From assembly GCA_947034885.2 (NCBI GenBank), contig OZ019759.1, forward strand, positions 11,410,501 through 11,474,500: a stretch of 64,000 bases of DNA, in the 5' to 3' direction. Position numbers and translations under genes: made by a program. Under the pieces are notes generated by a model that ran no database searches, was not told the DNA's origin, and saw only the letters and a list, made by a program, of their open reading frames with translations. This DNA comes from Thuidium tamariscinum (taxonomy: Eukaryota; Streptophyta; Bryopsida; Hypnales; Thuidiaceae). Shown here in pieces: positions 39,725 through 63,535 of the stretch. Position 1 is the stretch's first letter; each line of letters begins with the position of its first letter.

Positions 39725-39959
39725 GGTGTGAATCCACAATGAGTTTCACCCCCAAAAAATCGATCCAAGAATCCAGTAACGAGAAAAAAGTTATGACAAT
39801 GCTACCTACTACGAGAGGGTTTTTAAACCCCCTCAAAGCAAGGTTCTTGCCCTCCAATGAACCAAAACAACCGCAAGAACCTTCTTTCAAAGGTTCAAGG
39901 CTAGAGTCTAATCACTGAAGCAAGGTAATCCCTTAGTGTTTTAGCTGCAATTTTATACT

Positions 39960-41270: not shown

Positions 41271-41578
41271 GAAGAATCCATTAAAATAAAGTTGAACTCA
41301 AATTCAATTTCATCCATCTTTAGAAATGCTTATTGCAAAACTTTCGGTATACTTGTCCACATGTCGCTAAATGAAATTGATGTGATGATTACTTCCTTCA
41401 AATTTAGAAGTGTGTACTATAGTGGCATGTGCCCCCAAATAATAGGAAGTAAAATTACTAGCACTTATGCATTCAAGAAGAAATTTGACCCAACATATAG
41501 AAGTGAAACCTTGGATTAAAGAAACATTACTATTTTGTAGTACAACTTGCAATGAACTTTTTTTGAGGTTCATATATG

Positions 41579-41605
41579 TATGCCATATTTAACTACTTTC
41601 GGACT
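41579..41605 (+). repeat. Left terminal inverted repeat (27 bp)
   Basis: Starts TATGCCATATTTAACTACTT and is identical to the complement of 62073-62099 over 27 bases. Just inside, GGACT and AGTCC (41601-41617) can form a small hairpin. Confidence 0.85.
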
Positions 41606-41631
41606 ATCGAAAGTCCAGAAGTAATTTATGG

Positions 41632-42410
41632 AAAAATCTCCGGATGCATATAATTACGGTTGGCAATTTATCCAAAGATTTCAAACCAGAGAGTTCTAAT
41701 GTCACTGATGTTCATCTGGAAATCTCCCGATGTACTAATGTAATGTACATGCGAACCCATCCACCTAATTACTAATGTAATGTTCATCTGGAAATCCCCC
41801 GATGTACTAATATAATGTCCATGTGAACCCCCCTTAATTACTAATGTAATGTTCATCTGGAAATCTCCCGATGTACTAATGTTATGATGTAGTGTTCATC
41901 TGAAAATCTCCCAATGTACTAATGTTATGATGTAGTGTTCATCTGGAAATCTCCCAATGAACTAATGTAATGTTCATCCCGAAAACCCCCTATGTACTAA
42001 TGTAATGTTCATCTGGAAATCCCCCGATGTATTGATCTTTTGTTTCAGTCTGGAAAGCCTCCGATGTACTAATGCAATATTCATCTGGACCGCCCCACTC
42101 TTAAGATGTACTCATGTAATGTTCATCTGCAAACCCCCCAATGTAGTATGTATTAATTTTATGCTTATCTGGAAATCCCCCGATGTAGTAAAGTAATGTT
42201 CATCTGAAAATTCCCCTCTGTACTAATGTAATGTTCATTTGGAAATCTCCTGATGTACTACTGTAATGATCATTCAGCTAGAAATCCCTGATGTTAAGAT
42301 GTCATTATAAATACGATATTTTCATATCCACTGATTTCCTATGCAGTTTTACATATTACTCAAACATGAAAATTTAAATGTCAGTAAGGCTCATCTGGAA
42401 CTCCCCTGAT
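41632..42410 (+). repeat. Left subterminal array of degenerate palindromes
   Basis: About 16 copies of CATCTGGAAATCTCCCGATG-like units, many followed by TACTAATGTAATGTT and spaced about 35-75 bp. The left arm has drifted (CTGGAAAT) while CCCGATGTA is kept. This resembles subterminal transposase-binding arrays of large plant DNA transposons. Confidence 0.75.
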
Positions 42411-42828
42411 GAAGTGCTCACATCCAAAAGCAAGCAGTGACATTCAAATGGACAACGGGTTCTCATATGATGCCATAGACAGTGCAACTTCTATTTATTT
42501 TGCACTCTGTAAGCACTTATTGCTTACATAGGATCATACACAGTTATTAACAATGCCTTATTCCATCTTTGAAGTATTGTAGGGTGTACATTACTAGACA
42601 GTTTATAGGAAGCAGAAGCTTACAGTAGATTATATTATAATAATACAATCACATAAGTTTCGGCGGTTGCCAGTAAGGGATGGAACAAACATCATATACT
42701 ACTGTTAATTTCATCTACAATTGTCACAATCAGCAACAACTACCTCTAATTAAAAAGAACAGATAGTCATACGGGACCATGTGCAATGAAAATGCACAAT
42801 GGCAATTCAATGTCATATAGACAATGCC

Positions 42829-42846
42829 ATCCGGAGATCTCCCGAT
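42829..42846. repeat. Palindrome copy 3' of the transposase-like gene
   Basis: ATCCGGAGATCTCCCGAT, one mismatch from the perfect palindrome, about 30 bp past the stop codon. Confidence 0.8.
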
Positions 42847-44470
42847 GACCAGTATAAGCCTACCATGGTAAGCATTTAGGGGTCCACCTCATTTGCCCTA
42901 TTCAGATTTGCCAAGGCAGCCTCCCTACTCTTCTTAGGAATAGTTCGAGATTTGGGGTCTACTACCTTAGACCAATTTGCATATACTACGCAATTTACAT
43001 CAACCCAAGTGGGGGCTGTATTTTCAACAACCCATTTACCACTCCAGCAATTCCGGTACCTCAATTCCAATGTCCTTTCGGAATTATCCGGTCTCCAGTA
43101 CTGCAGCAAGAACTTGCCATTATTCTCATCTTCGGGCACTCTACATACGTCAGACAACGCTCTTCCTTGCCAAACAGCACAGACGGAGGGGTCTTCGGGT
43201 CTAAGAAGAACCCATGAGCCTGGACGTATGTCCACCCAAGGATTGAAACTTTCCTGTGGAGCTTCATTTGCAGGGCCACAATAAGGTTCTGGTTGATCTA
43301 CCTCTGGAATCACATCCATGGGATTCACGGTCGACCTTGCTCGAGATACATCATCTCGCAACACCCTCCAATCATGTTCTGGCCAAAAGCCTTCAACTAG
43401 AGCTGGAAGGCAATCCGGTAGCGGATCGTTCAGCTCACGTACCACACGATTCCAGTAATCCACATATGGACCAAACGCGGTTGCAAATCCCTCACATTTT
43501 GACATTCCATTTTGCCAGTACTGAATGTACTTTTGGAGTCCGACCAGCATAAAACCCTTGTTCAGTGTAGCCTTTCGTGCAACTTCAAGAGCCTTCTCTC
43601 GATTTCTTGTCTCCTTAGGAACTTCGCTGCCCCACATAGGCTTGAATGGCACCGGCTTTGGACAACCCCGAGGGAGCATTGGACGACCATGCCGGTCTTT
43701 CTTCCACAAGCACTGAGAAGGTTTATCAGACGGTAGCCACTGTGAATCCACTACTGATTTTTTATACTTCATAAAGGGGATTCCATCACCATCCACATAG
43801 AATTTAAAAAGATGCATCTCTCCCAATCCGATAATTCTAGCTGCGCCACTACACAAGTAACCTCTAATAAAGCATTTAAAATCTGCCACCTCGAAACAAT
43901 CTGGCCAAGGACGAGATCGTAAAGTTCGAGTCCCCCGGCCAACATGACAGAGCATAATGAGCATAAGTGCCATCACCATGACCATGAGCTACCATACCGG
44001 TCACGCTCAACGGAAGCTGACCTAAACCTTGAGTGGCCTTTGTTGTCACCCGCATCCTCGGAAGAGCCGTTTTAGATGTATCCATCTTATCATGAATAAC
44101 GCATAACATCTCCTGAGGGTTCCGTTTCGATTCTTCACACCAAGACCCATATAAGCGACGACAAGACGCTTGATGATTAAGATGCTCAGTTCGCTGCTTC
44201 GTGAACTCCACAAACTCGGGACTTCCTTTCGGTGATTTCAAAAGGAACGCCAGTAATTGATCACAAGTAGTACACTTCGCAAATGAACTGCCAACAGGTT
44301 TAACCGCGACATTGTTGAAGTGCTTCTTTTTTATTCTACTAATGGTTGACTGGCTCACTTGAGGAAGACCATAATCCGAATTTAACTGCAATGGAATTTC
44401 AGCACATTTCAAAATCAAAAGCAACAACAGAAGATAATGGCTAAGAATGATTGTCCTCCAAAACAATTTT

Positions 44471-44516
44471 ATCAGGAGTTCTCCCGATGTAATAACATAT
44501 CCGGAGATCTCCCGAT
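44471..44516. repeat. Two palindrome copies inside the transposase-gene intron
   Basis: 44471-44488 and 44499-44516, in the 183-bp intron at 44386-44568. The second is ATCCGGAGATCTCCCGAT. Confidence 0.85.
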
Positions 44517-45466
44517 GGCATAATGCAACTCACAGACTCAGTAGACAAATTTTGAGTGATTCAACTACCTCATTGGCATCAGCTTGAACTCGTTTCCAAT
44601 TATTTCCAACAAGCAGAAATTTCAAAGTGTCCATTCTTCCATTTCCAATGCCCCGCATTTGGTGTGGCATTTGATCAGCGGTTTCATCTATGATTGCTTT
44701 TATCGTTCCTGTCACTTGGACGGTTCGAATCCTGGGACGCTTAATCCTTTTGTTCCCGTGCAATCCCGAGACCACACCATCATTGTACTTCTCTATATAA
44801 CTATGGTAGGTCGACTTCGAAATTCCGTGAATAATGTACCACGCCGTAGTACATACTTCAGCTCCCTCCAATGTAACATATTTACGCTTCCGATTCCCGT
44901 CCCCACTATGCAGTTGCCCGCCCACGGCGATCCCATATTCCCGACGGTCTTCAAATGACTTTAGGTAAAATGTCTTCCTCACCTTCAACGTACTCTCATG
45001 ATGAAACATTTGGCAACATCGGTTTGTGCAACATTTTTGTGAACTAACCTTCCGTATTTCATCTTCCCCAGTTTTTCGAACATATTGTGAATCCTGCTGG
45101 TCAAGCTTGGGTCGCCGAACGATATAGCGATAGGGGGACTTCTTGCGACCACCTAGATAAGCTAAGGGGTCCTGAACTTTGGGATGGGCCCGAAAGTGGT
45201 CAACAGTCTCCATCAACGATCGTCCACATGGGAACCAAGAATGTAATAAGGGCCACCGAGCATGACTCATTATGGTATCCTTGTCACCAACGAAAACGTC
45301 CAGTACAGTAACACCCACAAAGCCCTCACCGACTATTCCATCTTGGAAATGATCATCCGCCCTAAAGCAGATTATTCGACCTGACGTTAGTAACATGCCA
45401 TCCGAATCTCTGTGATGCACCTCAAGACCCACCCAGTCGTCTAGACGAATGTAGTGATCATGATCC

Positions 45467-45484
45467 ATCGGGGGATCTCCCGAT
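45467..45484. repeat. Palindrome copy inside the transposase-like coding exon
   Basis: ATCGGGGGATCTCCCGAT, read on the minus strand as part of SSGDPPMD. One mismatch from the consensus. Confidence 0.85.
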
Positions 45485-46229
45485 GACCTCATTACAGCAT
45501 CAACTCTCCATAACACTGTCCGATCAAGAACATCAGCTAAAGTTCTAAAACCCCTTTGGCAAGGGTCAACTCAAAGTTCCTGAGCTTCTAGATTGATCGT
45601 CCGAGGCCGTAGCAGAACAAATACCCAAGGCTCCATGGGGATTTGAACTCCAAGCCACTCGCCTTGAGGACGAGCATCCACAATACATCCTTCTCCAACT
45701 TCACCATATCCCGGCAAAAGCAACTTCACAACATCACCGTTCTTGACTGGTGAGGATGTAGCACTGGACTCCTGAGACTCATTCTCCTCAGCGGTTCCAC
45801 TTGAGTAAGAGAGTAGAGCATCATCCACGGATTTATAGGATAAGTCCATTTCCTGCGAATCACTGTCGTTGAAAGCCATACTGGAAGGTTTCTTGAATGA
45901 CTATTGGATCTGAAAACATCGTCAAGGCACAAAGAAGTCAGACGGTCTGGGATGTATATTATTGCCATTGCCCTTCCATACACAATCTTCACATTTTGAA
46001 ATGTCAAACAATTGCATATAACAGAATTCACTGCACATACAATTGGCCAAATTGAATCCTACTTCCTTTCACTTTTGGAGTTCACGAGCTCATTCCTTTC
46101 GTAGCACAGAATGTTGCATACATTCTTGAGATATCTATAAAATTAGCCTAGAGCTAGTAGTCTTCGGATATGTCGAGTGCCCTTGATCTACGAATGCACG
46201 GACGTTCATAGAGTACTCTTCAGAAATCA

Positions 46230-46865
46230 ATTATCCGGAGATCTCCCGATGGAACCACTCAGCGGTATAATCGTCAAGGAATCGGACAAGCTCTTCATGA
46301 AAACATACTAAGAGCATTCAATATGTCGTTAGAGCTTCGAATACATTTAGTGCATTTGGATCAGACATAATCATTCGGAGATCTCCTGATGGAGCCATTC
46401 GGAGGTGTTACCACCCAACCATTGGAAGATATCCCCATGCGTTCAGTGCGAGAGCATGTGATCCAACTATCCGGAGATCTCCCGATAAAACCACTACTAG
46501 AGATTGAAACTCACCACCTAGAAGATCTCTAGAAAGAAACATTACGAGAGTTTAAGGCTCATCTATTGGGAGATCTCCGGATGGAAATACAGCTAGAATT
46601 TAGGGCTACAGATCTCCAGATTAAAATATAGCTTGAGTTTAGGGCTCATTTGTCGGGAGATCTCCGGATGAAAATATAGCTAGAGTTCAGGGCTCATCTA
46701 TCGGGAGATCTCCGGATGGGAATACAGCTTGGGTTCAGGGCTCATCTATCGGGAGATATCCGGATGAAAATATAGGTAGAGTTCAGGGCTCATCTATCGG
46801 GAGATATCCGGATGAAAATTTAGCTAGAGTTCAGGGCTCATCTATCGGGAGATCTCCGGATAGGA
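46230..46865. repeat. Internal palindrome cluster with 48-bp tandem array
   Basis: Isolated copies near 46233, 46376 and 46460, then about seven copies from 46570 to 46862. The last five share a 48-bp unit (GAGTTCAGGGCTCATCTATC plus palindrome plus GAAAATATA). Most here end CTCCGGAT instead of CTCCCGAT. The cluster lies upstream of the transposase-like gene start (45879). Confidence 0.8.
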
Positions 46866-48564
46866 CAAATACGTTCGCACGTGCTACCGTACTATATTGC
46901 ATCTCCGTATAATGTACGCACTCGTATATTATTTTGATCTTCGTATGGGAGTGAGGTCCTCAATACTTCGTATTATGGATTCTTATACGGTATGTACTAG
47001 TAAGCCAAAGGTAGACGACCAACCATCATAAGGACAACCATACTAGATCATCTTCTACAGTAACCAAAAAGAGCTTTCAATTCCTAGGTATTGATCTCCA
47101 AATACATGTCGGCAATTGACAATGCATTTGAAAGTTATCTGAAGTTGTGTTCTATGTGCAATATGCCGTGATGAAATCCAGCTAGATGCTCATGGTCTGT
47201 AACACTGCTCAATAAGCAGCTAATGGTTATGCATTCATCAAGGGATATGAATCCACTGTTCAACATAAGCTTGGATACAAGAAACCACTGAAGCATTGCA
47301 TTGCCGTCCTCATATCCTACTAGTTCCTATTGTTTGTGACATGCAGAAACTCCAAGTACACTACCGAAGCCTCAAGATTATGAAACCCGAAGCAATGGAA
47401 GTTGAAAAAATCATACCTTGTAATAGTGAATTGACAAGACAGCTTGTGACCGCACGTCCAAGTGCTTGACACACTGCAATGCACGAGCTCCAAACTCCTC
47501 AGCCTCAGCAAGCATGTTCACGACTTCACATGTGCAAAAGAGAAATTCCTAGCTAGCTTGGGGGCTTCACACTAGTTCGTTAGGATTCAATATCCGTGCT
47601 TCCCGCCTCGAATTTCTATATGAGATGCGAATCTTGCACGTTTGAAATTGTTGACTGCCCTCCTCAAGTGAAGACTGCATTGACCAAGGGGAGGATCTCA
47701 CCGGATGCGGTCTCCTAAAGCAAATGTTGACCACTTTCTCGGAGTTTGCGCAACACTGCCTTCGAGGAGCATCTCCGAATGTGAACCCCTCACTATAATT
47801 GCTTACTGGATTCTTCATGTTCACATTAATCCAATCTATTGCAAAGTCACAGAGTTAAATTTGCGTGTTTACAATTATTGTAACTGTTGACTTCACTCTC
47901 GAGATTACCGCAACTTGAAGACCCTACAGAAGATGCACGTGGCCTTCTCTTTTGAATCTTTGGTAGATTCTTTGAATCTGTAGCATTGAAGTAGGGGACT
48001 TGCGGCATTCTGTCTATCAAATATACTCGTCACAATGACAATGAACACTTCCATGTCTTTTATCTTCATTAATATTAACCACTATTTATGTTGTGTTTCA
48101 TTATCTTATAGGCTCATCTATACCAATTATGTGAAAGTCAAATACATTTTGGTTTGAAGCAATTTCCCATTGTACAGAATGACTACATGTTATTCAGTGA
48201 ATTTCTTTATCAACACTACTGAATTCACCATCTACATTTTATTATAGAGAAAACAAATGCAATGGATACATGACATTACAATAAAATAATGATTAAATGG
48301 AAATTAATTTAGAATCTTGGATCCACCATATAAAGGTGTAGATTCTCTACGAAACGAAGATCTCCCTTGCTCAAACTTCGTTTCAATAAGAGGATGCCTG
48401 AGGATGTATGCCCCAGTGTTTACAAAAAGAGTTTGAAAATTAGGGTTCCAATCATTGGAAATTAAATTCAACCTAAACAATTACAAGTTACATGGTTACA
48501 TCTTACAATTTGACCATTGACTACGCTTTCATTTGAGGTCCATCATTTGTAGGATCATTCTAGG

Positions 48565-48725
48565 AGGTTCCACGGTTTTAGGGATCAGGGTATAGCATCC
48601 ACGGTCTTAGGGTATGGCACCCACGGTCTTAGGGTATGGCATCCACGGTCTTAGGGGATAGCATCCACAGTCTTAGGGAAGACACTCTATGGCCTTACGG
48701 TTTAGGGTTCAAGGTTTAGGGTCTA
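48565..48725 (+). repeat. 22-bp tandem repeat next to TTTAGGG-like words
   Basis: About five units of GGCATCCACGGTCTTAGGGT, followed by GGTTTAGGGTTCAAGGTTTA, which resembles degenerate plant telomere repeat. Confidence 0.75.
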
Positions 48726-49639
48726 CTCTTTCAAATTATTGGTTCTACAGGTTGCGATTGACAATGAAATGGTCATTGGTATAACGGTTTAGAGGATTAG
48801 GGTCTACATTCTCATATTCTTGAATGGCGTAAAGGTTGTAGATTGTACTATCTAAGGTTTTATATCAAGGATTTATAAATTAGGATTCCTAATTTTCGAT
48901 ATGAGATTCAGTGAATTCTAAGTGTTTTATTTCGAGGGTCATGAGACTATGATATTTCAAATTAGGATGCCTAAATATTGAATGATTATGTTGAGGGTTT
49001 GGGTTACAATATTGATTTTATTCTTGTTAAAGTTCAAGTATATTATTCAGGGTAGTACTAGGGCCTTCTTCGGATTCAAGTTTTTCTTAAATTCATGATT
49101 GGATGAGGGATTTTTGATGAGAATCATAAAATTAGTGTCTGAATTTATTAATAAGATTATGAGCTTGCTTTTGTGGGATTATTTTTTAAATAAAGGCCTA
49201 ACTTCAGATTCTAAACCTGGCTACCATTAGTTTTACTTGCCAATTATAATGAAAATGTGTATTGTTAATATTCAATAGACTTACTATCCTTCCAATTCCT
49301 ATTTACCGAATAAATAATTTTGATTTCGAAAAAAAAAAATGATTCTAAAAAAGTTAACTTTCTAACTTCGTTGAATTATATTAGTTACAATCATGTTATT
49401 TGCTATAAAATATAAGATTAATATTCATAATTCTTCTCATTCATCCTTTATCCGTAGGCCAATATAAATTAATTAAAAGCTTCCTTCAAACAAGTAAATA
49501 ATTCTGTCCATTATCTTATGTCATTGAAAATAACAAATCTTTACTTGTTCATATAATTCTTGACAAATAATGTAATTATAGAATTCTTATTCTATATGCA
49601 AACCTCACATGATGAATTTATAAATTGCTATGTTGGAAA

Positions 49640-50575
49640 TGTATAAGTTGCAATGTTATAGAACAATCATGTTCCATGACAAATTTCAACTTTCAAGTTG
49701 AAATTGTCTATTTTTTATTTGTTTTCTCAAAAAAGGGCACCCTGCCATTCTTTGCACCCATTGCCAAATGCAAGCTATGAATCGGAAATCAACGTGAATA
49801 AGGGACAAAAAAAATATGTGTAAGTTGAAATGTTATAGAACAATCATGTTCTATGACAAATTTCAACTTTCAAGTTGAAATTGTCTATTTTTTATTTGTT
49901 TTCTCAAAAAAGGGCACCCTGCCATTCTTTGCACCCATTGCCAAATGCAAGCTATGAATCGGAAATCAACGTGAATAAGGGACAAAAAAAATATGTGTAA
50001 GTTGCAATGTTATAGAACAATCATGTTCCATGACAAATTTCAACTTTCAAGTTGAAATTGTCTATTTTTTATTTGTTTTCTCAAAAAAGGGCACCCTGCC
50101 ATTCTTTGCACCCATTGCCAAATGCAAGCTAAGAATCGGAAATCAACGTGAATAAGGGACAAAAAAAATATGTGTAAGTTGCAATGTTATAGAACAATCA
50201 TGTTCTATGATAAATTTCAACTTTCAAGTTGAAATTGTCTATTTTTTATTTGTTTTCTCAAAAAAGGGCACCCTGCCATTCTTTGCACCCATTGCCAAAT
50301 GCCACATAGGATTGGAAATCAACATGACTAGGAGACAAAAAAAATATATGTAAGTTGCAATGTTATAGAACAATCATGTTTTATGACAAATTTCAACTTT
50401 CAAGTTGGAATTGTCTATTTTTTATTTGGATTCTCAAGAAAGGGCACCCTGCCATTCTTTTCACATGCATTGCGAAATGCCACGTAAAATTGAAAATCAA
50501 CGTGAATAGGGGCCAAGAAAAATATGTGGAGGTTGCAATGTCATAGAACAATCATGTTCTATGACAATTTGGGTG
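49640..50575 (+). repeat. 177-bp tandem (satellite-like) array, about 5.3 copies
   Basis: Unit starts (TAAGTTGCAATGTTATAG) fall at 49644, 49821, 49998, 50175, 50351 and about 50529. The first four copies are nearly identical; the last two are more diverged. Each full unit contains a near-perfect hairpin, TTCAACTT-TC-AAGTTGAA. The array lies in the middle of the 20.5-kb element. Confidence 0.9.
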
Positions 50576-52030
50576 TGAATTCTAAATTAGAGTTGAATCC
50601 ATTGCAATGGCTTAATAATATATAAGTTTTTGCGGAACTTGAATACACTTCCATGCCTAGTTTAGGGTCCTTGTACATACCATCAATTGAATTTAAGAAA
50701 ATTAAAACAAATTTATGTTGAATGATTTTGTAATGATTATTTTAATGTATTGGTATAGAACATGCACATTTTAGTCCTGCACGATGGACTCTATGAATAG
50801 CACAATAATTTTCATGCAATTATTTGATTTGAGACATTTGGCCTTACCCTTGTTTTATATGACTTTGTAAAGATTTGGAGGTAATCATGTTGAATTGTCT
50901 ATAATGATTGTGATGTAATTGTTGAATGATGAAGAAGGTTAATGTCACCTTCAGTGTGTCAAAGACAATGGTGCCAAAATAATTGAATTGTGTCAATTGA
51001 AGTAATTAAATTTATGCACTTTGGTATATAAAATTTTTGTTGCTTTACTACGATAGAAACTTTGTATTTCAATTTTAAATTGGACATGAAATCCTTTTAC
51101 GATTAAATAAGAATAGGGTGCTCTAAAAATTTTTGAGACATTTTTAACACTAATTTTACTATTTTAGGGGATTCATTAAAAAAATAAGGAGCAAAAACTA
51201 GAATATATAACACCTATGAATAAAAGTCTTTTTTGGTAAAAGAAAATTGGGTGTGAATTCCAAATTAGAGAGAATTTCACACCAACAACAGAAAGTGTTT
51301 AAAAAGAAATAAGGTGCACAAAATAAAAGGACTTGTAACACCTACAAACCAAACTGTTTAGCCTAAAATATAGGGTGTTGTAAAATAAGGACAACATTTC
51401 AATCATCACTTCGCTTTTTGATCCTTTAAATCAAATTACATTTCTAAAAGAGATTATTTTCATATTGATTTTCCTAGCACTTGCATCTTGCTCGAATTGT
51501 CGATTTGTCGATATGCATAACTTTAATTGAATGTCGTAAATAATCCAAGTAATTTCTAATTCAAAATACTAGCAAGTGTACCTTCAATGTATAATTATGA
51601 AGAGCATTATACAAGTGGTATGTTAAGTTATATAATTGGTAGTGAATACTGAATTATTTATTTTTCAAAATTTTTTAATTGTATAGTTTAAACTTATAGC
51701 TCTATAGTATGGACCCAAGCATTGTAGCAAACATTAGTGGTCACTCATATTTTTGTAATAAAAAACTTGGCACTTTTTTACAAACCCCAACAAACTAAGG
51801 ATTTGTAAACACTTCAAGCTAAAATATATGCATTTTTTAATCATGATGATTTTCTTAGTTTTATGATCAAAACATGCACTTTTTTTTTTTGTAAGCTTTT
51901 GGATGCCACATAATCTATGACATGTCATTTTCCAAAACCCTAAACTTCCAATTCTTAAACCCATACAATTGTGAAATGATGCCCTAATCACCATCATGAC
52001 CCACCACAGGACTTATCATCATGGCGTAGC

Positions 52031-53332
52031 CTGTAATGAATGTTGCACCCCCTTGTGGAAGCGACATTCACTCTGGCGTCATTAGTGTGCCGCTCCACGT
52101 GTATGGGCGGCTCTCGTTGCGCCTTCCTCCCGATGCCGCTGCCTGCCTGCCATTTCCGTTTCTCCGGCTCGCTGCTCACTTCTCTGATCTTGTCGCTCCT
52201 CTCTCCCGAGTCGTCGCTGCCTTGTATCCGATTGTTTGTCTTTAAATGCGCTTGGGGAATTGGTCCATGTGCATTGATGTGCACACAGACTTGACTTCGA
52301 ACTTGATACTCTTGCGCTGGAGCCGCTGCTACGTTGAGTCCGAATTACGGTGCGCACTTCGAGTACGCTCGTAGAGCCCTGCTGTGTCGTCGACGCTTGG
52401 ACGTGGTGCTGGCGCTTGGCGCTTCATCACGTCGCTGGAGTATCCCAAAGTGAGGTCGGGAGAGGTGGGAAGCTGTCGTGGGAGGCTACTGCACGAAGCG
52501 CTTCTTCCCCACGGACACCTCGCAGGTAAGGCATGCTTCATGTTCTGTAGTGAGCTAGTTCGACATTTCATATGCTTTTCTTCAATGTTTTCACGGTCGC
52601 TTATCTAGTGTTGGAAAAGTAAGCATGTAGTCTCTTGACCACTTGTGAATTCAAAGCACAACGTGAGTAGGAGAGTAATGTAGATCAGGGTGGTTCATAC
52701 ATCCTTTGGCATTGCATAGTCATTCCAAGTTGTTACTGTAACTTTCAATTGCTCGTTAGAAAAAATCTCCGCTTCAATCTGCCTTGTATCCGATTTTTCG
52801 TAGGCTATCCACCTGAAGTCAGTGTGCGGCTGTCAGTGTGCATCGCATCGGAACTTTTTGTTCACACTTGCAGCTAGCAAGCGCACCCTCACTTCATTTT
52901 CTAAGGTTAGTTTGTAGCTATTGTGGACTGCTCGCTCCGTAAGTACACCACTTCAACAAATGCTGCTTCATTTGTGTCTTTGGGGTGAATTTTGGTACAT
53001 GTTTAAGATCAGATTGAAGATAGTACTACAGATGCTATAGCTGCCAGTGATGTGGGTTTAGAAACCCGTCGAGGTAGTCCTTGTGCTCAAACATTTGAAT
53101 TGTGAGTCGGTGAACAATAGAATTATGATGGTTTCAATTGTTGTAAGTTGATGTTTTTCTGAAATTAAAGTTTTATTAGAGTTAATTTTGTATCTTGACG
53201 CCCTCAGACAGCCACTTTCACAACTTCTGTGTCCATACTCTGTGATTCACGCTGATATGCCCTGGCTTCTTCTTGTTGCCCATCGCACAGAAGTTCACTT
53301 GAAGACTACAGACTTGCTCGAATTTGCACACA
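52031..53332 (+). promoter_or_regulatory. Probable promoter/5' leader of the large fusion gene
   Basis: A GC-richer patch (52.04-52.56 kb) follows long AT-rich DNA and leads into the fusion gene. A good donor, CGCAG|GTAAGG, is at about 52527, and an acceptor-like CCCTCAG is near 53210. A spliced 5' leader ending just before the ATG at 53333 is plausible. This is inference from composition and splice motifs only. Confidence 0.35.
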
Positions 53333-53929
53333 ATGGAAGTGGAGTCTACACAGCCGGCGGAAGAGCTTCCGATGTGGAACAATCTGTAAGTACCCACTCA
53401 CTGAGAAGTTAGTGTTGCACAGATCCATTTGCATCTCACTGAATGTTGAAATTCATTGGCAATTCAGGTGTATGTAATGACAGTGAGACAGTGTATTAAG
53501 ATGTATGATTGTAGAAGGGGCAGCAGGTCTAGATGTGCGCATAGCAAGATCATTCAGTGTTTAGGCGTTACATAGTACTAAAAAGCCATAGTAGTACACA
53601 TCCAGGGATTTCCGTATAGTTACTGTAGCCTAAACCGAGAACCGTAATTCCTGTAACTGAAGTATTGAAGACTTTTCAATGAATCCTGTATTAGCACGTA
53701 TCTGGAGAAATCAGTATGGTGTCCTATAACTGCGCATCTGGGGAAATCCAGAGGATACCCTATAACCGCGCATCGGGAGTTTTTGACAAAAGAACCCTAT
53801 AACCGCGGAAACGTAGAGCGCAATGTGTCACCAATTATAACTAATTCCTGATCGCTAGAAGAAACCCCTATTACCACGGAACGGGAGCACCCCCGATGAT
53901 CCTTAGTCATGAAAATCAAGGCTGCAAAA

Positions 53930-54682
53930 TCATCTGGAGATCTCCCGATAAGTACGAGAAAAGAACTTCGATAACGAAACCAATGACGAATGTAAACGAA
54001 AAAAAAAGCCATCCAGAGATCTCCCGATAGTAAGAAACTAAATGACGGTAGTATTAGTTCCCTAATGCCATGAAGCCTAAAGGAAGCCTAAATTCATAGT
54101 ATGGCTCTTGACCTATCCGGAGATCTCCCGATGTTGCCTAATCCGAAATTCTTATATCAACGGGAGGTCTCCCGATAAATATGAGTTTTATCCCGAGTTG
54201 TAAAGACAAATGAAGATGTAGAAAATAGGAATCGTTTAGGGGGAGAGCCTACGGTGGAAAGACTTGAAGATACAATGAGTGTTGATGGATAATAAGATAT
54301 CCGCACGTGGACAGAAGTTCATGGATAGTTCAATGTCAAAGCTATCGGGAGATCTCCCGATAGTTGCTTTAAGGATTAGAAGGGTCCTGGAGTGCCTATA
54401 ACTAGAATATCAGTTTCTTGGAGTAAGGTAGGGCATCCATCGGGAGATCTCCCGATAGTTGCTTTAGGCATTACAATGGTCTTCAACTGCTATAACTACA
54501 AAGTGGGTCTAGAAATATGGCCTTGAGGCCATCGGGAGATCTCCCGATGGTTGGCAGTAGTACAACTGCAAACCATTTTGAATCTAGTCACACTTGTCGA
54601 TGTATGTGAGAAGACCACTCATATTGAATGCTGCTCAGTATTCCAATGGCTTAAAGTAGTGACATCGGGAGATCTCCCGATG
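53930..54682. repeat. Cluster of eight palindromes in the first intron of the fusion gene
   Basis: Copies near 53934, 54013, 54117 and 54160, and perfect 18-bp copies at 54344-54361, 54439-54456, 54531-54548 and 54664-54681. All lie in the 1,352-bp intron 53386-54737. Confidence 0.9.
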
Positions 54683-56134
54683 ACTGAGGTTCGTAGGTAC
54701 TTCAGCATCTAACAACTTTTGTTCTGCTTAATTGCAGGGATGTTTTGTACTCTGAAATACCACCGGACATGAGCTCTAAAAGGCTTGCAGCCTTTGTTGA
54801 CGAATGGGTTCCTACTTATAGATACAAGGGGGCTCATCACCTGGTGGGCGTTTTCCGGTGCCGCAACAAAGTTACTACGTGGGGCATTGAGTGGAAGGTG
54901 GATAGTGATAAGTGAGTGACTATCGTACCTACACTAATGTACATGGACCAGAAGTCCGCATCGTCCGGGCTGGACGTGTTGGAGATACAGGGTCTAAATG
55001 ATTCCACAGCTCTTGTGGTAATTCAGGAGAAAATTGCCAAGTCCAACGATGACTTAACATTCGGTTTAATTTTGGACTATAGGTTGATGAGGAAAGAGTT
55101 GTGCGTAACCGTTTTCCAGCGTGGGTACTTGTATTCGGCATCTGGCTTTTGTCAGTGGACTCCTGAAGAAATGAAGACGCAGTGGAACATCATGGACCAG
55201 GACTGCCAAGAGGCAAACGTGACGAACACTGCCCTTGTAGTAGCAGCTCCAATAGCATCACCGGCAAAGAAGGGAACAAAACGGAAAGCACTAGTCGGAG
55301 CACCAGGGGATGATGCCACAGATGATAGTAATGCAAAGGCCAAGATCCTGAAGACTATCACAATTGAAAGATGCGTGGCCTTCACAGATGCAGAAGTAAA
55401 GAAGCTGAGCAAAGGGCAGATGTTGGCAATGCAACAGCTTTACAAGAGGGTCTTTGGGGTGATGTATAAGTGGGGGAAGAGACCTCTAGTGGACGCAGGC
55501 GGTAAAGCAATTCGTGTGCACTACAAGCACTTGCATAAGGCTCCACCAGGGAAGATTGTGTACAGAGGTATTGAGAAGGCTAGGTTGGAGGGGATCCTAA
55601 ACCAAGTCCGAATCGAGGCAGACTACGACTCTGAATTGAGACACATCATAGTCCTTCCCCTAAAACTTGGTCCGTATGGTGGTGATGGTTCCAATGCAAG
55701 GGCTGCTTTCTGGGATTCCGCTCCGAATAAGAGAGATCTAACGAGTACAACGAATTACTACATCATTGGTGGACAACACACAGTCGAAGCGCATAAGAGA
55801 CTCTTGGAGGTAGGCGAGATCCCGGAGTGTGATAGAGCGCAGGCATCAACCTTTGAAATCATTCCTATTTGGGCACCAGTGAGTACTATGACGCATAGTA
55901 GTGACGACCTTGTCTACCTCTCTCGATCACTGAACCAGAACATTGCTGGTCAACAACGCGAGCAATGTTTCACCCAGCAACTCCTGAATGCACGAGTGAA
56001 ATGGAGGGATATGAATAGCCCACAACCAGCGTATGGTGGGAGAATTCACTCGCCTGAGTATGCGGTAAGGAGTACACCACTCTTCTCTTGGAATTGATTC
56101 TCACTTTTTCATTAGTTTTGGAAGGGGGCTTGGC

Positions 56135-56152
56135 ATCGGGAGATCTCCCGAT
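56135..56152. repeat. Perfect palindrome in the second intron of the fusion gene
   Basis: ATCGGGAGATCTCCCGAT inside the 156-bp intron 56065-56220. Confidence 0.95.
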
Positions 56153-57603
56153 AGTTGCTTCTCGTAGGATAGAGTTTTGTCCTTGGAATTTCAACTGATT
56201 ATGATGTGGCCCTGGCGCAGAGGTTCCATCCTGTAATGAGTGCAATCTTCACAGGAGTTAAGCACAATGACGCGGCAGATTTGAGAATTCCGCTTCTCTT
56301 CCTTGAAGACAATGACGATGTCAAACGATGGATAAAGATCGAAGAGAACTACATGAATCAGCACCTTCCGGACATTGCCGGAGATTATGGAGGTCCAAAA
56401 ACAAAGCGGAAACCACTGTTTCAAAATGACTTCATGCCTCTCTACGGCCTTCGCCTTGAGGATGTGAACTACCTGGCGACCTTGGTGGAGAACAAGGAGG
56501 TGTCGATGAAGAGCTCTAAGGCAAAGGCGTTGGAGAACCACCAGAAGCTCCCTACCCTCGTTCAAGTAGCAGCTCTGGAGAAGCAAGTTCGACTTATGAA
56601 GAACGAGCTCATGTGCCAGTACAAATCGCACCCGCTTCTGAGCAAGAGGCCTGAGTACATCCCATACACTGCCGATCAGTGGGATGCATTTGCGGTGGAG
56701 AAGAAAATTAGCCGTCGTGATCTGGAGCTTTGGGTTCACAAGTCAAATGACTTTGAGGAAGGACAGGAGTGGTTTAAGGGGCGAGGGCAAGCTCTGAACA
56801 AGACATGGGACCCCGAGGACTGTCCCCGTTTTCTGAGAAACCTATGGGAAGCACACATGAGTACCGAGGAAGGGGTGCAAGTCAACCAGGTCTTGGCATC
56901 AAGTTTTGATGATTCATATATGTGCATGTCCATGGACGAGACCAACTGGAACATTAGTGGCGTCCTCGCTAACCCAGTTGTGAAGAATTGGCGTGGAGAG
57001 AAGAAAAAACACCTATACATCTGGTTTCTTTTCGAAGCTACGGCGACTGGATCAAGGGCAAAGAAGCTGGAGGATCATAAACTCAGAAGACTTTTTGAAG
57101 CATTGGAGTTCTGTGATTCAAATCAGCAAACATTGTTGGCACGGTCTCCAACTGTTCTTTTCACAGATGTCGATGGCTTCCACGAGGTACTTGTTCATTT
57201 GGACGCCCGTAGGCGAGAGAAGAAGAAGGTTTGGGATTATCACGTAATCCACTACTTCAGCAAACGAGTTGATGGCTTCCCGAGGCCCGCTACTGGGACA
57301 AGATTCAATGTCTTCGTAGTGTACTTATTTGGGTACAATGAGGGCCAAAGTCGAAGGGATTGCTTTTCTTGCTTCTTCCCTGGAATCAAGCCTCCCATGA
57401 AGCCATTTTACGTCTCAGACGACATGGAGGACGTGTACACGTATTGGAAGCGCCCTTGTCTACCATGGTTGAAGATCATGACTCCTCTTGCACTTCTTCG
57501 ACATCATATACACGACAATATGGTGATTGTAAATGTCAATGGTGGGCCGGAGATTACATTCCTCGGACTGGTAAGATTCTAATTTTGAACCCTCTACTCA
57601 TCT

Positions 57604-57621
57604 ATCGGGAGATCTCCGGAT
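57604..57621. repeat. Palindrome in the third intron of the fusion gene
   Basis: ATCGGGAGATCTCCGGAT inside the 140-bp intron 57571-57710. Confidence 0.95.
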
Positions 57622-57965
57622 GCTTGTATCCTCAAAGGGTAGGTACTCAGAAGCACTCTAACTTGTAATTCTTGATGTCAATTCAAATCACCCGAGCGAA
57701 GGTCTTAGAGGTAGTTCAATCAGAGGATACTGATGGAACATGAGTTGTGGGGAAGCAAATTTGGGATGAAGTCCAGAAGTCGCTTGCCGAAGATGCAGGG
57801 CCTGATTCTCATGAGCGTGAACCTTCTATCAATCAGCTTTCGGAGGACGATGCAGATTCGCATGAGACTACAAAACCTTCCAATGTGGAGTACTCTGAAC
57901 ACAGCGAGGGGACTCAAAGACCAAAAGAGATATTGAAGGTCTGTCTTCCTTTCCCTTACGCATCT

Positions 57966-57983
57966 ATCGGGAGATCTCCGGAT
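57966..57983. repeat. Palindrome in the fourth intron of the fusion gene
   Basis: ATCGGGAGATCTCCGGAT inside the 114-bp intron 57939-58052. Confidence 0.95.
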
Positions 57984-58454
57984 GTTAACTCTTTGTTACT
58001 CATGTTTTCTTATGTGGTTGGTTGACTGTCTCTATCCTTGTTCAAACCGCAGGAGAAGTCTCCAGAACCACCGCGTCGTCCAAAGAAGTTGAAGAATCCT
58101 AAGCGACCTAATCCTGTGAGCGCCCCCCCCAAAAGCGAAGCGAATCACGAAGAAAAAAAGTGTGAATTCATTGATGGCGAATGCCTCAACGTTTGGAGGG
58201 GATGGTTCTCCATCAAATAGTTTGGATGAACAGACTACGCCCGTCGTAGCGGAGAACACTGGAGTCGCGAACGCTACGACGATTTTGGTTTCTTGTTCCA
58301 AAGGAGGAGCTCCTGTAGGGGTCCTTGCAGGCGAAGCTTCAGAAGATAACCAGTCAGAGAAGGGAGTTCCATGTACTCAAGCCACCGAACGGATTGAACC
58401 GCAATCTCTAGATGTAGGGGCGGGCGATGTACCTATGGACTGCAGTGGTGCTGC

Positions 58455-58574
58455 ATCGGAAGATCTCCCAATGAACGATGTAGAAGTCGTCGTCACTAGC
58501 GCTGTATCGGGAGATCTCCCGATGAATGATGTACAGATCGGCCTTACAAGCTCTACAGCGGGAGATCTCCCGAT
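58455..58574 (+). repeat. Three coding palindromes at exact 51-bp spacing (17-residue protein repeat)
   Basis: 58455-58472, 58506-58523 and 58557-58574, all in exon 5. They encode SEDLPMNDV, SGDLPMNDV and AGDLPMAQ. The middle one is a perfect palindrome. The 51-bp period keeps the frame. Confidence 0.95.
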
Positions 58575-59837
58575 GGCCCAGGACACGGAACTCATCTCCG
58601 TTCCTACTATGGCTAATGAGGTTCGGAATGATGCAATGCTTGATCTCGACCCCCTCAGTCCGGAAGTATTGGAGGCCGTGACTATTGTGGAGGAAGAAGA
58701 GGATGTCTCAATCACTAACCCAGGAGTCCCAGTGGTGCTTTCAGAGAATTTGCTCCCGACGGTCGGGAGGGGGGTAACCGCGGTAGTCATGGGAAGTGAG
58801 GAGGTGTGTAAATTAAGGGAGACATTTCGCAAGCTGTGTCTTCTTCAAAGTATGAGTTTAGGTCCTGGTGCCAGCGATAAAAAATCTCGATACATTGAGG
58901 CTTATCGACTAGCAATTCGTTTTACTTACCAAAGCCTTTTTGACATTGTCCTTGCACAGGATGATGTACCTGCCCATGAGGCTGAAGGTTCGAATGCTGC
59001 ACGTTTGCCTCAGGTAGGCGGTGTTGTCCAAGGAGCAGTGGCCCAAGAGGTTACCGATACAGGTGCTTCAATTGACATCAATGTGTTTTAGGGATGGGTT
59101 GTCTCCCTCTGTAGCAATTCTTTTGGGTGTCACTAACTATGTCATGATTCTGTTTTCTTGCAGATGTGAGAGGGGATGGGTCGACAGAAGGTACAACGTC
59201 TAAAGAGGTACCCCCACGACGGTATACAGTGATCCTAGACATGAACGGAGTTCTTGTACACAGGGCTTTTTACAAGAAAAAACACGTCGTAAAAAAAAGA
59301 CCTGGTGTCACAGTTTTCCTTGAATGGTTGTACTCCAAGGCAGATGTAGCCTTCTGGAGCAGTGTTTCGAATCGTACTATGAAGGGTTTGTTAAGAACCG
59401 TGCTAGCGGATACTTCTTTTGGGGAGGATAAAGTCCATGCCCTCACACAGGTTGATTGCTCGGAATCCTCGTATAGGAGCAAAGAGAAACCTGATAAACC
59501 GACCTTTTTGAAGGAACTGAACATCTATACGCTTGCTGTAGGTTTGTCGTCCGCGGAGAACGTACTTCTTATCGATGACTCTCCCTCAAAAAACCTTCTT
59601 AATGATTCTAACAACGCCATCTTCCCACAGACTTGGAAAGGTGACTCAGAGGACAATTTCTTGACTGGGCATCTACTTCCTTGGCTTGATCGTTTATTCC
59701 AATCAAACGAAGCTGTGGTACATTTTGTGAAGAACAATCTCTTGGATGGCTGTCAGAGTCCTTTAGATGCGTTGTCCAGGGAGGGACATGAGATTCTGAA
59801 GGCAGTGGTTGGACTCTAGTTTCTTCCGAGGGTGGCT

Positions 59838-60140
59838 TCATCTGGAGATCTCCGGATACCCGATTTTGCTTATTGATGGGATGTACTAGTGTACAATTGT
59901 AGATGAACAATAATTTCTGCAACTTCAACTTAGCAGAACTTTGTAACCTTACTTTCACTACATGTCCCCTGTTGGAACTTGTATATAGATAGGTGGATGA
60001 GGACATTGCAGTTGTATTTTGAAGGTTGTCATAAAAAAGAAAATTTACACATGCGTATTACTGTGTTCTTCATTTCAAGTGGGACATCCAAGTTTTCTTA
60101 TTCCTCTGTTATGATTCATCTGGAAATCTCCCGCTATTAT
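59838..60140. repeat. Two diverged palindromes after the fusion gene
   Basis: ATCTGGAGATCTCCGGAT at about 59840, just past the stop at 59819, and CATCTGGAAATCTCCCGC at about 60117. Confidence 0.75.
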
Positions 60141-60406
60141 TTGCTTGCTTGTGCATTATTCTTACCACGAGAGGAATATGGTCAGAATATGGTCAGAATA
60201 TTACTGACTACGTTGGACTGTTGATAGTGATTAATGATGCCTTTGTAGACATACACTAATTTATGACTTCAATTGTTCATAGACAGTTGCACTTAGTAAG
60301 TAATTTGTGTATTTTACCACCAGTGATATCCGCTCTCCTTGGTACAATTTAATGTCCTACAAATGAATTCCAAGTCTACTGTCTTGAACAGGAACCTCAG
60401 TGTGAA

Positions 60407-61048
60407 ATGTGTCTACATATGACTTCCTCCGTGTACATCTTATGTACTCCATTGTCTTCTACACTTATACGCCACCCATATTCATCGGGAGTTCTCCCGA
60501 TGACTGGAGGTCCTCCTTTGTATGTAGAATTGACTACTGTAGTGAATGGGTCTTGGCAGAAGGCGTTGCTCGTTGTTTTGATTGGTGCGTTGTGCGTTGA
60601 AGGCGGTGTCGCGGATCTCCCTCACGATATCAACATACTGGATGGTTTTAACGAGTTTTTTCAATACCTTGTTGACAATTCTCACTGTGGCCTGTGGTCA
60701 TGCATGCGTGCTTCGACTTTGTTGGAGCTTGTTCGACGTCTTTTACGACAAAATATTATAGACCGGTTCCTTTTCATATCCAGTGCTGAAACTCCTGACA
60801 AGAACGATCCCTATCCGAATCGTGTAGCAATGTTGGAGCATGTTCTAGGTAGTCCTTGATTGCGTAGGGTTCTTTGGAATCAAACTATTGCATTGCTTGA
60901 GGTAGATCCTCTGAACTGGCAACGTCCACGCGTTATAGGACCGTGGATACGTGTGGGAGATGATGTAGATCTTATCAAATTGCAACGTCCCTACTACATA
61001 GGACCAGAATTGAATATAAGGGGAGAAAGATACCATGAAGTGCACTAG
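60407..61048 (+). pseudogene. Second, degenerate FCP1/NIF-like ORF (catalytic Asp pair lost, one nonsense codon)
   Basis: One frame from about 60407 to the TAG at 61046, interrupted by TGA at 60857. The real start may be the ATG at 60500, which lies inside a palindrome copy (60484-60501; SSGVLPMT in this frame). The pattern follows the FCP1-like domain of the preceding gene. LLVVLIGALCVEGG is in the place of VILDMNGVLVH, so both nucleophile-loop Asp residues are missing. NEFFQYLVDNSHCGLWS matches FLEWLYSKADVAFWS. TIALLEVDPLNWQRPRV is in the place of NVLLIDDSPSKN. A possible pseudophosphatase or decayed paralogue; the similarity is by eye and distant. An exon upstream may be missing. Confidence 0.4.
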
Positions 61049-61199
61049 TGGTTATAATGAAGGCACATGTTTGTAATTTTTGGTATGAAAATTAGTAAAA
61101 TATGGTGACCCTTTCTTCTCCACCCGACTGTAACTAATTCCTATGTACCAAATGTTTGTCATTCACTTGTCATTCACTACATTCTCTTGTAATGTTATG

Positions 61200-62050
61200 A
61201 GAATTGCATCCGGAGATCTCTCGACCAATCCAGTGAAGCCTGAAGTAAAGCTTTCTTATTTATGTTAAAGTAATCCCTAGTTCATTGCCTCGGGGCAACT
61301 CAAAAAAGTCCAAATGTCTGTTCTTCCCTTTCATCGGAAAATCTCCTGATGATTCATATTCCTTTCTGTATATAAGTAAATGTAGTCCTCTTGTAGGCTA
61401 TCCAATTGGGACAAGAGAATTGTTTAGACTTATATCAATTGGATTTGGGTTCAGTCCTGGCTTTCTTGCAACATGGGGGAACCTCCATTATGTGTTGTTC
61501 CCTTACATCGAGAAATCTCCCGATGATTTTCTCAAGTATTACATGACTGTACCTTGATGAAGCTCAATGTACTTCAATTAAGTTAAGTTAAGTTCAGTTA
61601 AGTTCAATGTACTTCTCCAATTCCCTAAACTCCAAGAACCTCTATTATGTGCTATTTCCATGTTCATTTGGAAATCTTCGGATGATTCATCTCAAGTACT
61701 ATATATAAATTAATGAAGTTTGATGTACTTCTCCAAGTCCCTAAACTCCAAGAACCTCCATTATGTGCTATTCCCTTGGATCGGAAAATCTCCAGATGAT
61801 TCATCTCAAGTACTATGTATAAATTAATGAAGTTCAATGGAGTTTTCCAATTCCCTAAACCCTAAGAACCTCCATACTGTGCTATACCCTTACATCGAGA
61901 AATCTCCCGATGATTCATCTCAAGTACTCTATATAATTTGATGAAGTTGGGTGTACTCCAACTCCCCAAGTCCCCAAAATCCTACTTATATTGCAAAATA
62001 TAGAATCTAAAACCCTATTTAATATGAAAAATCTCCCGATAGTACCATGA
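61200..62050. repeat. Right subterminal array of degenerate palindromes
   Basis: About seven copies (near 61208, 61334, 61507, 61667, 61779, 61892 and 62029), for example CATCGAGAAATCTCCCGATG followed by ATTCATCTCAAGTACT. The middle three sit in a unit of about 114 bp that also has CCCTAAACTCCAAGAACCTC. Flanking sequence differs from the left array although the core is shared. Confidence 0.75.
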
Positions 62051-62072
62051 CAAAGTCCAGATTTAACACCAA

Positions 62073-62099
62073 AGTCCGAAAGTAGTTAAATATGGCATA
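62073..62099 (-). repeat. Right terminal inverted repeat (27 bp)
   Basis: Complement of 41579-41605 without mismatch. It begins, read inward on the minus strand, TATGCCATATTTAACTACTT. Confidence 0.85.
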
Positions 62100-63535
62100 T
62101 GTTTTGAAGATGCAAAGTTCTGGTATTTCTACTTAATACTAAGTCTATACTATGGAATGTCTATCTTGCAATGATTACCCTTAGAAATAATCTTCAATAC
62201 AAGAAAAATGATCCATAATATCAAAATTAGATTAAAATGCTCAAGAAGTCAATAATAGTCCAATAAAAATTTGAAAAGAAACATAAACAATAAAAAATAG
62301 ACATTTCTTGATTTGTAGAGTTTCTGCATATTTAGATACTTCTCTGAGGCTTAATTGTTCTTTCTCAAGCATTTGAGAGTAACTCCTTTTTTTTATAGGA
62401 TAGACATCTCATGAATTGTTCCAAGTGGTCTATGGCTAGGTAGTCTACAAAGCCTAAATCTTAGAAAACTACTTTTTGGATATTATTGAACACACTCTTC
62501 AATTTAACCTTCACGAATTTAATTACTGGTTTATAATAATTTGTAAAGAAGCAAGGCAAAGTTAAGAGTGGAAGAACATTCAAAATGGTTCTTTAAATTA
62601 TAATAAGATTAGAATACATTGTTGCACATTGTTGGACAATAATACAAGATAACTTTATCTTTGAGGATGAATTTGAGAATCTTTCAATCTTTGATTTGCA
62701 ACGTCATTAACAAAAAAATAATGCTTAGTCATTTTAAGAAAAATCAATAGAAGTTGAATTACAGTTATATGTAAATTTAAACTAAGGTAATGAATTTAAT
62801 AAGTTTACATTGGAAAGACAAATGTGAATGGCCATTTCAAAGGTCATCATTGTATGTGTATTTTTTAGTTACTATTAAATTTAATTATAAACACAAAGTT
62901 GGAATAATACTTACTAGTCTACCTAGTAATTATTTTCATATAGTGTATTTTTTGCAACAATTTTGTTGGTTAGATCTTTTTCCCAAAAAATTATATGGTG
63001 TACAATTCTTAACATCATTATTTATCTATATTAAATGAACCAAAACTTCACATGCACACAAATTGCACATCAAATACTAATGGAGATTTATACCATTGCA
63101 TTTTTAGGCATCCAATTACATTATTGAGCATTGAACTTTGACATACTTTAGGTCATTAGTTCACTATTGTAGTTAAATTAAGGATTTCTCTTTTATTGAT
63201 TGTGAGATTTTTAATCTCATTTCCACATCCCAATTTCCGGAGATTCTTCCTTTTATTGATCATGACTTTGTGAGATTTTCTTTCGCATTCCCACACAGAA
63301 TTGTTGGAAGATTAGGCCTTTATTGATTGTGAGACTTCCCTTTTTCATTCTTACAATCCATTTTTCTTGATGCCTTTTATTGATAGTGTGATTTTACTTT
63401 TTTCTCTTTCATCACACTTTCTTCAAATAAATATTATTTGGTTCATGTGATCTTTTTTTTAATTTGAAATACCCATTTTTTAATCATGAAGCCGTTTTCA
63501 GTTCATGCCGATTTCAATTTAATTCCTACAGCCTT
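62100..63535. other. AT-rich spacer right of the element
   Basis: No palindrome and no gene seen. 63.18-63.42 kb has a loosely repeated word TTTATTGATNGTGAGATTT (about four times, roughly 65 bp apart). Confidence 0.5.

Follow-up and report, generated by a model that had tools for sequence, protein, structure and literature searches.

What does a DNA transposon of some 20 kb gain from a gene that joins a ParB-like region to an FCP1-like domain, and why does one short palindrome recur along its length? These questions are raised by an element in a 64,000-nucleotide stretch of the genome of the moss Thuidium tamariscinum (contig OZ019759.1, here C11, positions 11410501-11474500; the window), which a first-pass annotation of the letters alone had described as a large DNA element with terminal inverted repeats (TIRs) and an unfamiliar gene set. 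The element, at 41580-62098 of the window (20,519 bp), is almost certainly a member of a multicopy family of giant TIR DNA transposons (family 1), which also comprises miniatures derived from it and has a divergent sister family built on the same gene plan (family 2). By analogy with the VANC proteins of VANDAL transposons, we give even chances to the idea that the accessory protein binds the palindromes of its family and licenses expression or transposition.

Termini, copies and the transposase-like gene

The first-pass annotation had reported perfect 27-bp TIRs. Twenty-seven bases do match exactly in inverted orientation (41579-41605 versus 62073-62099; chance expectation for such a pair in 64 kb about 3e-7), but the genomic copies revealed that the outermost shared base is coincidental. 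The true ends are ATGCC... at 41580 and ...GGCAT at 62098, and the TIRs (ATGCCATATTTAACTACTTTCGGACT) are 26 bp long and perfect in the window copy. A start at TGCC with a TA target duplication was considered and rejected, because matching copies begin at or one base before 41580 and their flanks vary.

When the genome (363,211,507 bases, 19 contigs) was searched with the TIR at up to three mismatches, 123 places were obtained, and none with the reversed control. One hundred of these were listed, and 50 of the 100 were paired by position. Among the listed matches this gave 15 large insertions (the window copy and 14 further ones, 8.0 to 130.8 kb, an inverted duplicate on C9 being counted once) and nine miniatures of 241-249 bp. 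The same four bases stood at both ends of 13 of the 15 large insertions and eight of the nine miniatures, thus in 21 of 24 true pairings, versus only 4 of 552 in a mismatched-pairing control. A full match was missing at C2:271998, at C11:6523931 (three of four bases) and in one miniature, so that the two large pairs concerned are defined by position only. The copy at C11:1634906-1656196 is collinear with the window element over its full length at 97-98% identity. The search with the terminus that the first-pass annotation had proposed therefore did find other copies that share both termini as their ends, with target duplications. The 130.8-kb interval on C5 and an 86-kb interval on C7 also have matching duplications (GCTA and TCAT, respectively), and would thus owe their length to later insertions inside members. 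A nested insertion was likewise considered for the 46.9-53.9 kb stretch of the window, and was rejected because the C11:1634906 copy carries the same stretch, about 97% identical; since both copies hold it, the stretch predates this pair.

C11 (17.5 Mb, 4.8% of the genome) holds five of the 15 large insertions, or four of 14 without the window copy (enrichment p 5e-4 with the window copy included); it may represent a sex chromosome or some other small chromosome rich in repeats. On C9, one insertion stands twice in opposite orientations, at 22760034-22784145 and 22807091-22831202, with identical flanks and the duplication AATT; this reflects either a segmental inverted duplication or an assembly artefact.

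A spliced gene on the minus strand (45900-42879) matches DUF7869 in Pfam weakly (E 7e-5, below cut-off). Its product has 18 protein homologs (E 3e-130 to 2e-9), and the three for which an organism is named come from mosses (Physcomitrium patens, Ceratodon purpureus). In an alignment of 15 of the 18, acidic residues were invariant or nearly so in the blocks HDKMD, LDN..DNKN and GHTHEDID, as would be expected of a DDD/E transposase. According to the accessible part of PMC10741241, Sola transposons have 4-bp duplications, TIRs of 11-1124 bp and a DDD-type transposase, and occur in Physcomitrella. The moss element resembles them in its 4-bp duplications (21 of 24 pairs, and AAGC in a family 2 copy) and in its 26-bp TIR; its DUF7869 homologs have the three acidic blocks. 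On these strong grounds we infer that the gene encodes a transposase, most likely of the Sola kind, a putative membership that is judged from stated traits. No paper on DUF7869 was found in the open-licence literature.

A transposase-like gene, as seen by the first-pass annotation, is thus present inside the termini, but the window copy has decayed. A 424-bp deletion at 43892 takes out the LDN..DNKN and GHTHEDID blocks of the core, which the C11 copy keeps, and there is one in-frame stop that is absent from the C11 copy, which has other stops. A complete transposase is therefore beyond the window copy, which would depend on one supplied in trans to move.

The accessory gene

On the plus strand, at about 54736-59816, successive exons encode a ParB-like region, a stretch of 450 aa, a linker and an FCP1/NIF domain. 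Their order and reading frames lead us to infer that they belong to one protein. The ParB-like exon and exon 2 each had a single homolog in a database of 5.8 billion proteins, P0001 (51%) and P0020 (53%), respectively; the P0001 search scored only the 7994 candidates that shared most words. The exon limits are supported by these homologs, because their open frames continue past the points where the introns of the element start. A prokaryotic or phage origin was also considered and rejected, since tblastn searches with P0001 in phages and plasmids and with P0020 in phages returned nothing.

The label "ParB-like", already used in the first-pass annotation, is only partly sustained. It is favoured by a published precedent (see below) and by the motif YIIGGxHTVxA, which is common to family 1, family 2 and P0001 and contains a GGxH box that we take to be of ParB type. 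The profile and structure searches weigh against it: at E<=10 no ParB family was found for the window exon and P0001 in Pfam and NCBIfam, or for family 2 in Pfam, the ParB-like regions of both families had no PDB sequence match to ParB, and the fold prediction of the exon (predicted local distance difference test, pLDDT, 37) was unusable and was set aside.

A ParB-like protein with dispersed palindromic sites does have the layout of the ParB-parS system, namely a GGxH-type motif and multiple palindromic sites of similar length nearby. The palindromes could then act like parS in the segregation or extrachromosomal maintenance of an excised circle or of the integrated element. We regard this as highly improbable, because fixed insertions with target duplications need no partition and Pfam named no ParA among ten frames of the element, no search having been aimed at ParA. 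The moss element differs from ParB-parS, moreover, in its spliced eukaryotic gene, in the missing ParB profile match and in having its sites across the whole element.

The last part of exon 2 is vaguely like motif I of beta-class DNA methyltransferases, a motif that the glycine-rich stretches NMVIVNVNGGPEITFLGL, INIWGGGNITEIAL and VNVLSVFGGAKLTCAAM in exon 2 or its counterpart presumably resemble. At E<=10, no methyltransferase family was found in Pfam for exon 2, P0020 or the family 2 counterpart, nor in NCBIfam for the window exon, and no DPPY-like motif was seen in exon 2 by eye. Judging from the glycine-rich ending and from analogy with an Ectocarpus transposon, exon 2 may descend from a methyltransferase. 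In our estimation it is improbable that the protein is a ParB-methyltransferase, or descends from one, and methylates the palindromes of its own element, as has been proposed for algal transposons. The GATC within the family 1 palindrome and the motif-I-like stretches would suit such self-modification, as would the precedent of a 21.5-kb Ectocarpus Sola1 element with ParB-like and methyltransferase parts (accessible text of PMC12477816), but with neither a profile match nor a DPPY-like motif the activity looks lost.

The FCP1/NIF domain is recognized by PF03031 (E 1e-16, above cut-off). In general, FCP1 domains bind the tail of RNA polymerase II and remove phosphate from it, and the HAD signature DxDx(T/V) contains two Asp residues. 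Read by eye, motif I of the window copy is LDMNGV, in which the second Asp is missing; in family 2 it is more degraded (LEVQGT, LGVTGL). A degraded motif I makes a phosphatase role doubtful and favours a role in binding. Both enzyme-like domains look degenerate.

We determined ratios of nonsynonymous to synonymous substitution rates (dN/dS) by the Nei-Gojobori method. For the accessory exons we used eight copies, namely the window copy and those seven of the non-duplicate copies whose ParB exon is longest (subfamily A: window, C11a, C7a, C9, C5 and C11b; subfamily B: C3 and C7b), and for DUF7869 three copies. Between A and B, dN/dS was 0.165-0.190 for the ParB exon, 0.092-0.122 for exon 2 and 0.32-0.38 for FCP1, compared with 0.60-0.77 for the linker (0.40-0.42 for the 38-codon C7a fragment); for DUF7869 the between-subfamily values were 0.18-0.195. 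Comparison of the subfamilies shows purifying selection on both genes. The first-pass annotation had called the accessory gene cargo, and passive cargo it is not: the gene is a conserved component that recurs in two divergent families. Individual copies have decayed, with at least one in-frame stop in each of eight non-duplicate copies (in the parts read) and one in-frame TGA, at 54913, in the ParB-like exon of the window copy.

Family-specific palindromes

Near-matches to the palindrome ATCGGGAGATCTCCCGAT (up to four mismatches) occur 46 times in the window, 45 of them between the termini, whereas 20 shuffles of the element gave a mean of 0.05. Both subterminal arrays contain them, as do the regions upstream of the two genes, the predicted DUF7869 intron and three of the four predicted introns of the ParB-like gene; three more sit in coding repeats of exon 4 (58455, 58506 and 58557) that encode (E/G)DLPM. 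As the termini also enclose the transposase-like gene and the exons of ParB-like and FCP1-like type, the first-pass statement that everything distinctive lies between them holds. The strict palindrome ATCSGGAGATCTCCSGAT has 216 sites in the genome (control 0), and all of the first 50, which were listed, lie inside TIR-bounded members, one of them in a miniature. Together with the multicopy termini and their target duplications, this bears out the view of a large TIR-bounded DNA element whose gene set is unfamiliar. Four viral contigs in IMG/VR (L001-L004) have one exact ATCSGGAGATCTCCSGAT each; scans of viral contigs for the TIR and for protein relatives of the DUF7869, ParB-like and exon-2 products yielded nothing.

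Conservation of the palindromes was assessed at 11 sites outside coding sequence and arrays, with ranges set beforehand and bases taken as independent. Between the window and the C3 copy, 122 of 126 palindrome bases (7 sites) were conserved, as against 1502 of 1854 bases of nearby non-coding DNA (Fisher p 4e-7); for the C7b copy the corresponding figures were 163 of 180 (10 sites) and 2130 of 2549 (Fisher p 0.011). All nine miniatures carry one version of the palindrome with 0-3 mismatches; in the one that was measured, it lies some 50 bp from an end.

These positions bear on the possibility of a transposition cofactor, a protein that at the palindromes would help to assemble or bridge the distant ends of a 20-kb element and, by binding upstream of the genes, would regulate its own expression. 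TnpA of En/Spm reportedly acts in this way at subterminal repeats. Degenerate palindrome arrays in both subterminal regions and the palindromes kept in all nine miniatures are in keeping with such a role; on the other hand, many palindromes, among them those within introns and those preceding the two genes, are distant from the ends, the internal ones are nearer perfect than the subterminal ones, and the palindrome of the miniatures is near one end only. We therefore consider a cofactor unlikely as the main explanation, but clearly worth weighing.

Weak ParB matches (29-35%) led to family 2 (members of about 13.1 kb), of which we read a 13,041-bp copy at C1:35747413-35760453; in these searches 89 of 95 ParB candidates and 150 of 470 FCP1 candidates were scored. 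The copy has DUF7869-like frames on the minus strand and ParB-like, exon-2-like and FCP1-like frames in the same order on the plus strand, the exon-2-like frame being collinear at 23-26% identity, and its second FCP1-like frame is recognized as NIF in Pfam (4e-7). The TIR core ATATTTAACTAATTATGGACAA is related to ATATTTAACTACTTTCGGACT of family 1, and the target duplication is AAGC (one copy read at both ends); the exact terminus is based on the C1 copy and one further right end, and the outermost five bases differ between the two ends. This core occurs 125 times in the genome (control 0), and among the 100 places listed 23 pairs span 13.0-13.6 kb. For 16 of 39 weak ParB matches an FCP1 match lay 3.07-3.36 kb downstream on the same strand, when compared with 20 of the 150 FCP1 matches that were picked by eye.

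Family 2 has a palindrome of its own, ATCGGCTGSCAGCCGAT, with 22 near-copies inside the C1 copy and one outside (22.5 kb). It was not found in the window, nor was the family 1 palindrome found in the 17 kb scanned at the family 2 copy; an outer ATCGG...CCGAT is common to both. In its strict form the second palindrome has 130 sites genome-wide (control 0), and 41 of the first 50, which were listed, lie within 11 kb of a family 2 ParB match (random mean 0.13), versus none of the 50 listed family 1 sites, a comparison made by eye on C5. The first-pass annotation had tied palindromes and genes alike to the termini of the window element. This is correct for the palindrome, which is bound to its family (50 listed of 216 sites), but the genes recur in family 2 with termini that are related yet distinct, and with another palindrome.

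Two further observations concern these sequences. A 742-aa JGI protein (P0007) contains GCQPIH in an N-terminal stretch, which equals the second palindrome read in one frame and suggests the same palindrome family in another organism or record. A third abundant group consists of open frames of about 266 aa with an NIF/FCP1 domain, mostly 32-39% to that of the element, many of them on C11. At the one locus read (C9:672600-678000), the NIF/FCP1 frame (NIF 7e-18) is preceded by a frame with the methyltransferase motif-I-like VNVLSVFGGAKLTCAAM, and neither of the two known palindromes was found in its 5.4 kb; Pfam named no methyltransferase there at E<=10.

It is very doubtful that the palindromes have no function, having spread by tandem duplication and drift, and that the genes are captured host genes in transit. 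Several palindromes do stand within tandem arrays, and the C7b conservation test is weakly significant. Against this reading, the palindromes have changed less than the DNA around them (clearly in the comparison with C3), purifying selection acts on the ParB exon and on exon 2, and family 2 combines the same genes with a different palindrome.

Proposed self-recognition and known systems

The palindrome is private to the family (sites listed), conserved, kept in miniatures and switched together with the encoded protein, and for these reasons the data point to recognition of self DNA by the element's own protein. The ParB-like protein probably binds the palindromes, and we would expect with moderate assurance that its ParB-like part, with or without exon 2, recognizes the palindrome of its own family. 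More speculatively, the protein might coat the element and mark it as self, so that host silencing would not stop its expression and movement. Licensing of the element as a whole fits because the sites lie upstream of genes, in introns and at the ends, a placement that also fits a cofactor; that licensing or anti-silencing is the main function we judge to have slightly less than an even chance. The FCP1-like domain may serve as a binding module, and not as an active phosphatase, for the tail of RNA polymerase II or other phospho-peptides, in which case an ancestral methyltransferase and an ancestral phosphatase would have become binding scaffolds. We propose only tentatively, doubting it somewhat more than we credit it, a self-recognition module in which the proteins co-diverge with family-specific palindromes, each coating and licensing only its own family.

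Several observations, besides the profile and fold results for the ParB-like region and the degraded FCP1 motif, weigh against licensing through the palindromes. All nine miniatures appear to belong to a single lineage, and the palindrome that they share therefore does not amount to nine independent retentions. The conservation test with C7b is weak, and in that copy the palindrome at 57966 has lost ten bases and the coding palindrome at 58557 is absent. Palindromes are also subterminal, as the site of a transposition cofactor would be. Within subfamilies, dN/dS was mostly higher (about 0.2-0.6 for the ParB exon, exon 2 and FCP1; 0.76 for FCP1 between C3 and C7b), as for copies decaying after insertion, and in family 2 it was 0.61 for the ParB core pair, 0.32 for exon 2 and 0.29 for FCP1. 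Finally, the first FCP1-like frame of family 2 was not assigned to NIF in Pfam, although it gave a 31% tblastn-type match (4e-11).

VANDAL transposons are Mutator-like, and their VANC proteins are not known to be ParB- or FCP1-like. In the accessible text of PMC5735166, VANC21 acts via dense YAGTATTAY motifs in VANDAL21, and its binding and demethylation are demonstrated. VANDAL21 and the moss element are alike in having a further gene and dense family-specific motifs in their own non-coding DNA, with different targets in related families (PMC5735166 and PMC10398659, accessible parts). A dense, family-restricted motif was found here as well (first 50 sites of each palindrome listed); it is palindromic, unlike YAGTATTAY, and its binding is predicted instead of demonstrated.

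The published precedent for the ParB-like gene is Sola1-1_Ec32 of Ectocarpus, a 21.5-kb element with a ParB-like and methyltransferase gene opposite the transposase; similar genes are cited for green and red algae (PMC12477816, accessible text). Both are TIR DNA transposons of about 21 kb with a ParB-like region in an accessory gene opposite the transposase. The label is based on annotation in the alga and on a motif in the moss, and the two were compared by description. Sola1-1_Ec32 has a recognizable DNA methyltransferase, whereas the moss gene gives no methyltransferase match and ends in FCP1/NIF, and the accessible text does not mention family-specific palindromes for Sola1-1_Ec32 (PMC12477816). 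The part of PMC6431247 that was available does not mention Sola, ParB, KDZ or phosphatase. Within the open-licence literature, neither an FCP1 partner nor palindromes that co-diverge with the protein turned up. These two features appear to be new, and ParB-methyltransferase genes in algal transposons are already published.

The moss families thus bring ParB-like accessory genes to a land plant, paired with an FCP1-like domain, a pairing that suggests a link to RNA polymerase II. They also supply the idea of self-binding transposons, put forward for giant elements of algae, with a candidate site that is family-restricted (sites listed), conserved, kept in 241-bp derivatives and exchanged in a sister family. 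Self/non-self recognition by transposons becomes testable with two proteins and two DNA probes and, if specificity holds, the natural pairs of protein and 18-19-bp site would be usable for targeted chromatin work.

Table 1. Layout of the element in the window (window coordinates).
Feature	Position	Strand	Basis or remark
Left 4-bp target site duplication, ATGT	41576..41579		window letters and genomic copies
Left TIR, 26 bp	41580..41605	+	inverted match and genomic copies
Left subterminal tandem array, units with degenerate palindromes of ATCTGGAAATCTCCCGAT type	41708..42273	+	
DUF7869 (transposase-like) gene, at least one inferred intron holding two palindromes	42879..45900	-	
Palindrome cluster upstream of DUF7869 gene, partly a 48-bp tandem array	46233..46861		
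AT-rich central stretch without palindromes	46900..53850		177-bp tandem array at 49639-50567
Palindrome cluster upstream of ParB-like exon	53880..54681		
ParB-like exon, YYIIGGQHTVEA motif	54736..56064	+	end supported by homolog P0001
Perfect palindrome in intron 1	56135..56152		
Exon 2, 450 aa, no assigned fold	56221..57570	+	
Palindrome in intron 2	57604..57621		
Exon 3 (approximate)	57756..57940	+	
Palindrome in intron 3	57966..57983		ten bases deleted in C7:9415335 (C7b) copy
Exon 4, fast-evolving linker, limits approximate	58120..59088	+	
FCP1/NIF-domain exon	59148..59816	+	PF03031, E 1e-16
Right subterminal repeats with degenerate palindromes	61297..61948	+	114-bp tandem units from about 61600
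Right TIR, 26 bp	62073..62098	-	inverted match and genomic copies
Right 4-bp target site duplication, ATGT	62099..62102		window letters and genomic copies

Rfam and tRNA scans of the window gave no match. Outside the left end, coding remnants of DUF659, which we take to be hAT-like, occupy 37944-39745, and a protein-kinase-like frame (Pkinase E 2e-5, below cut-off) adjoins an uncharacterised 218-aa frame at 28701-30221. Outside the right end, a G+C-rich tandem repeat with a 64-bp unit lies at 63571-63812.

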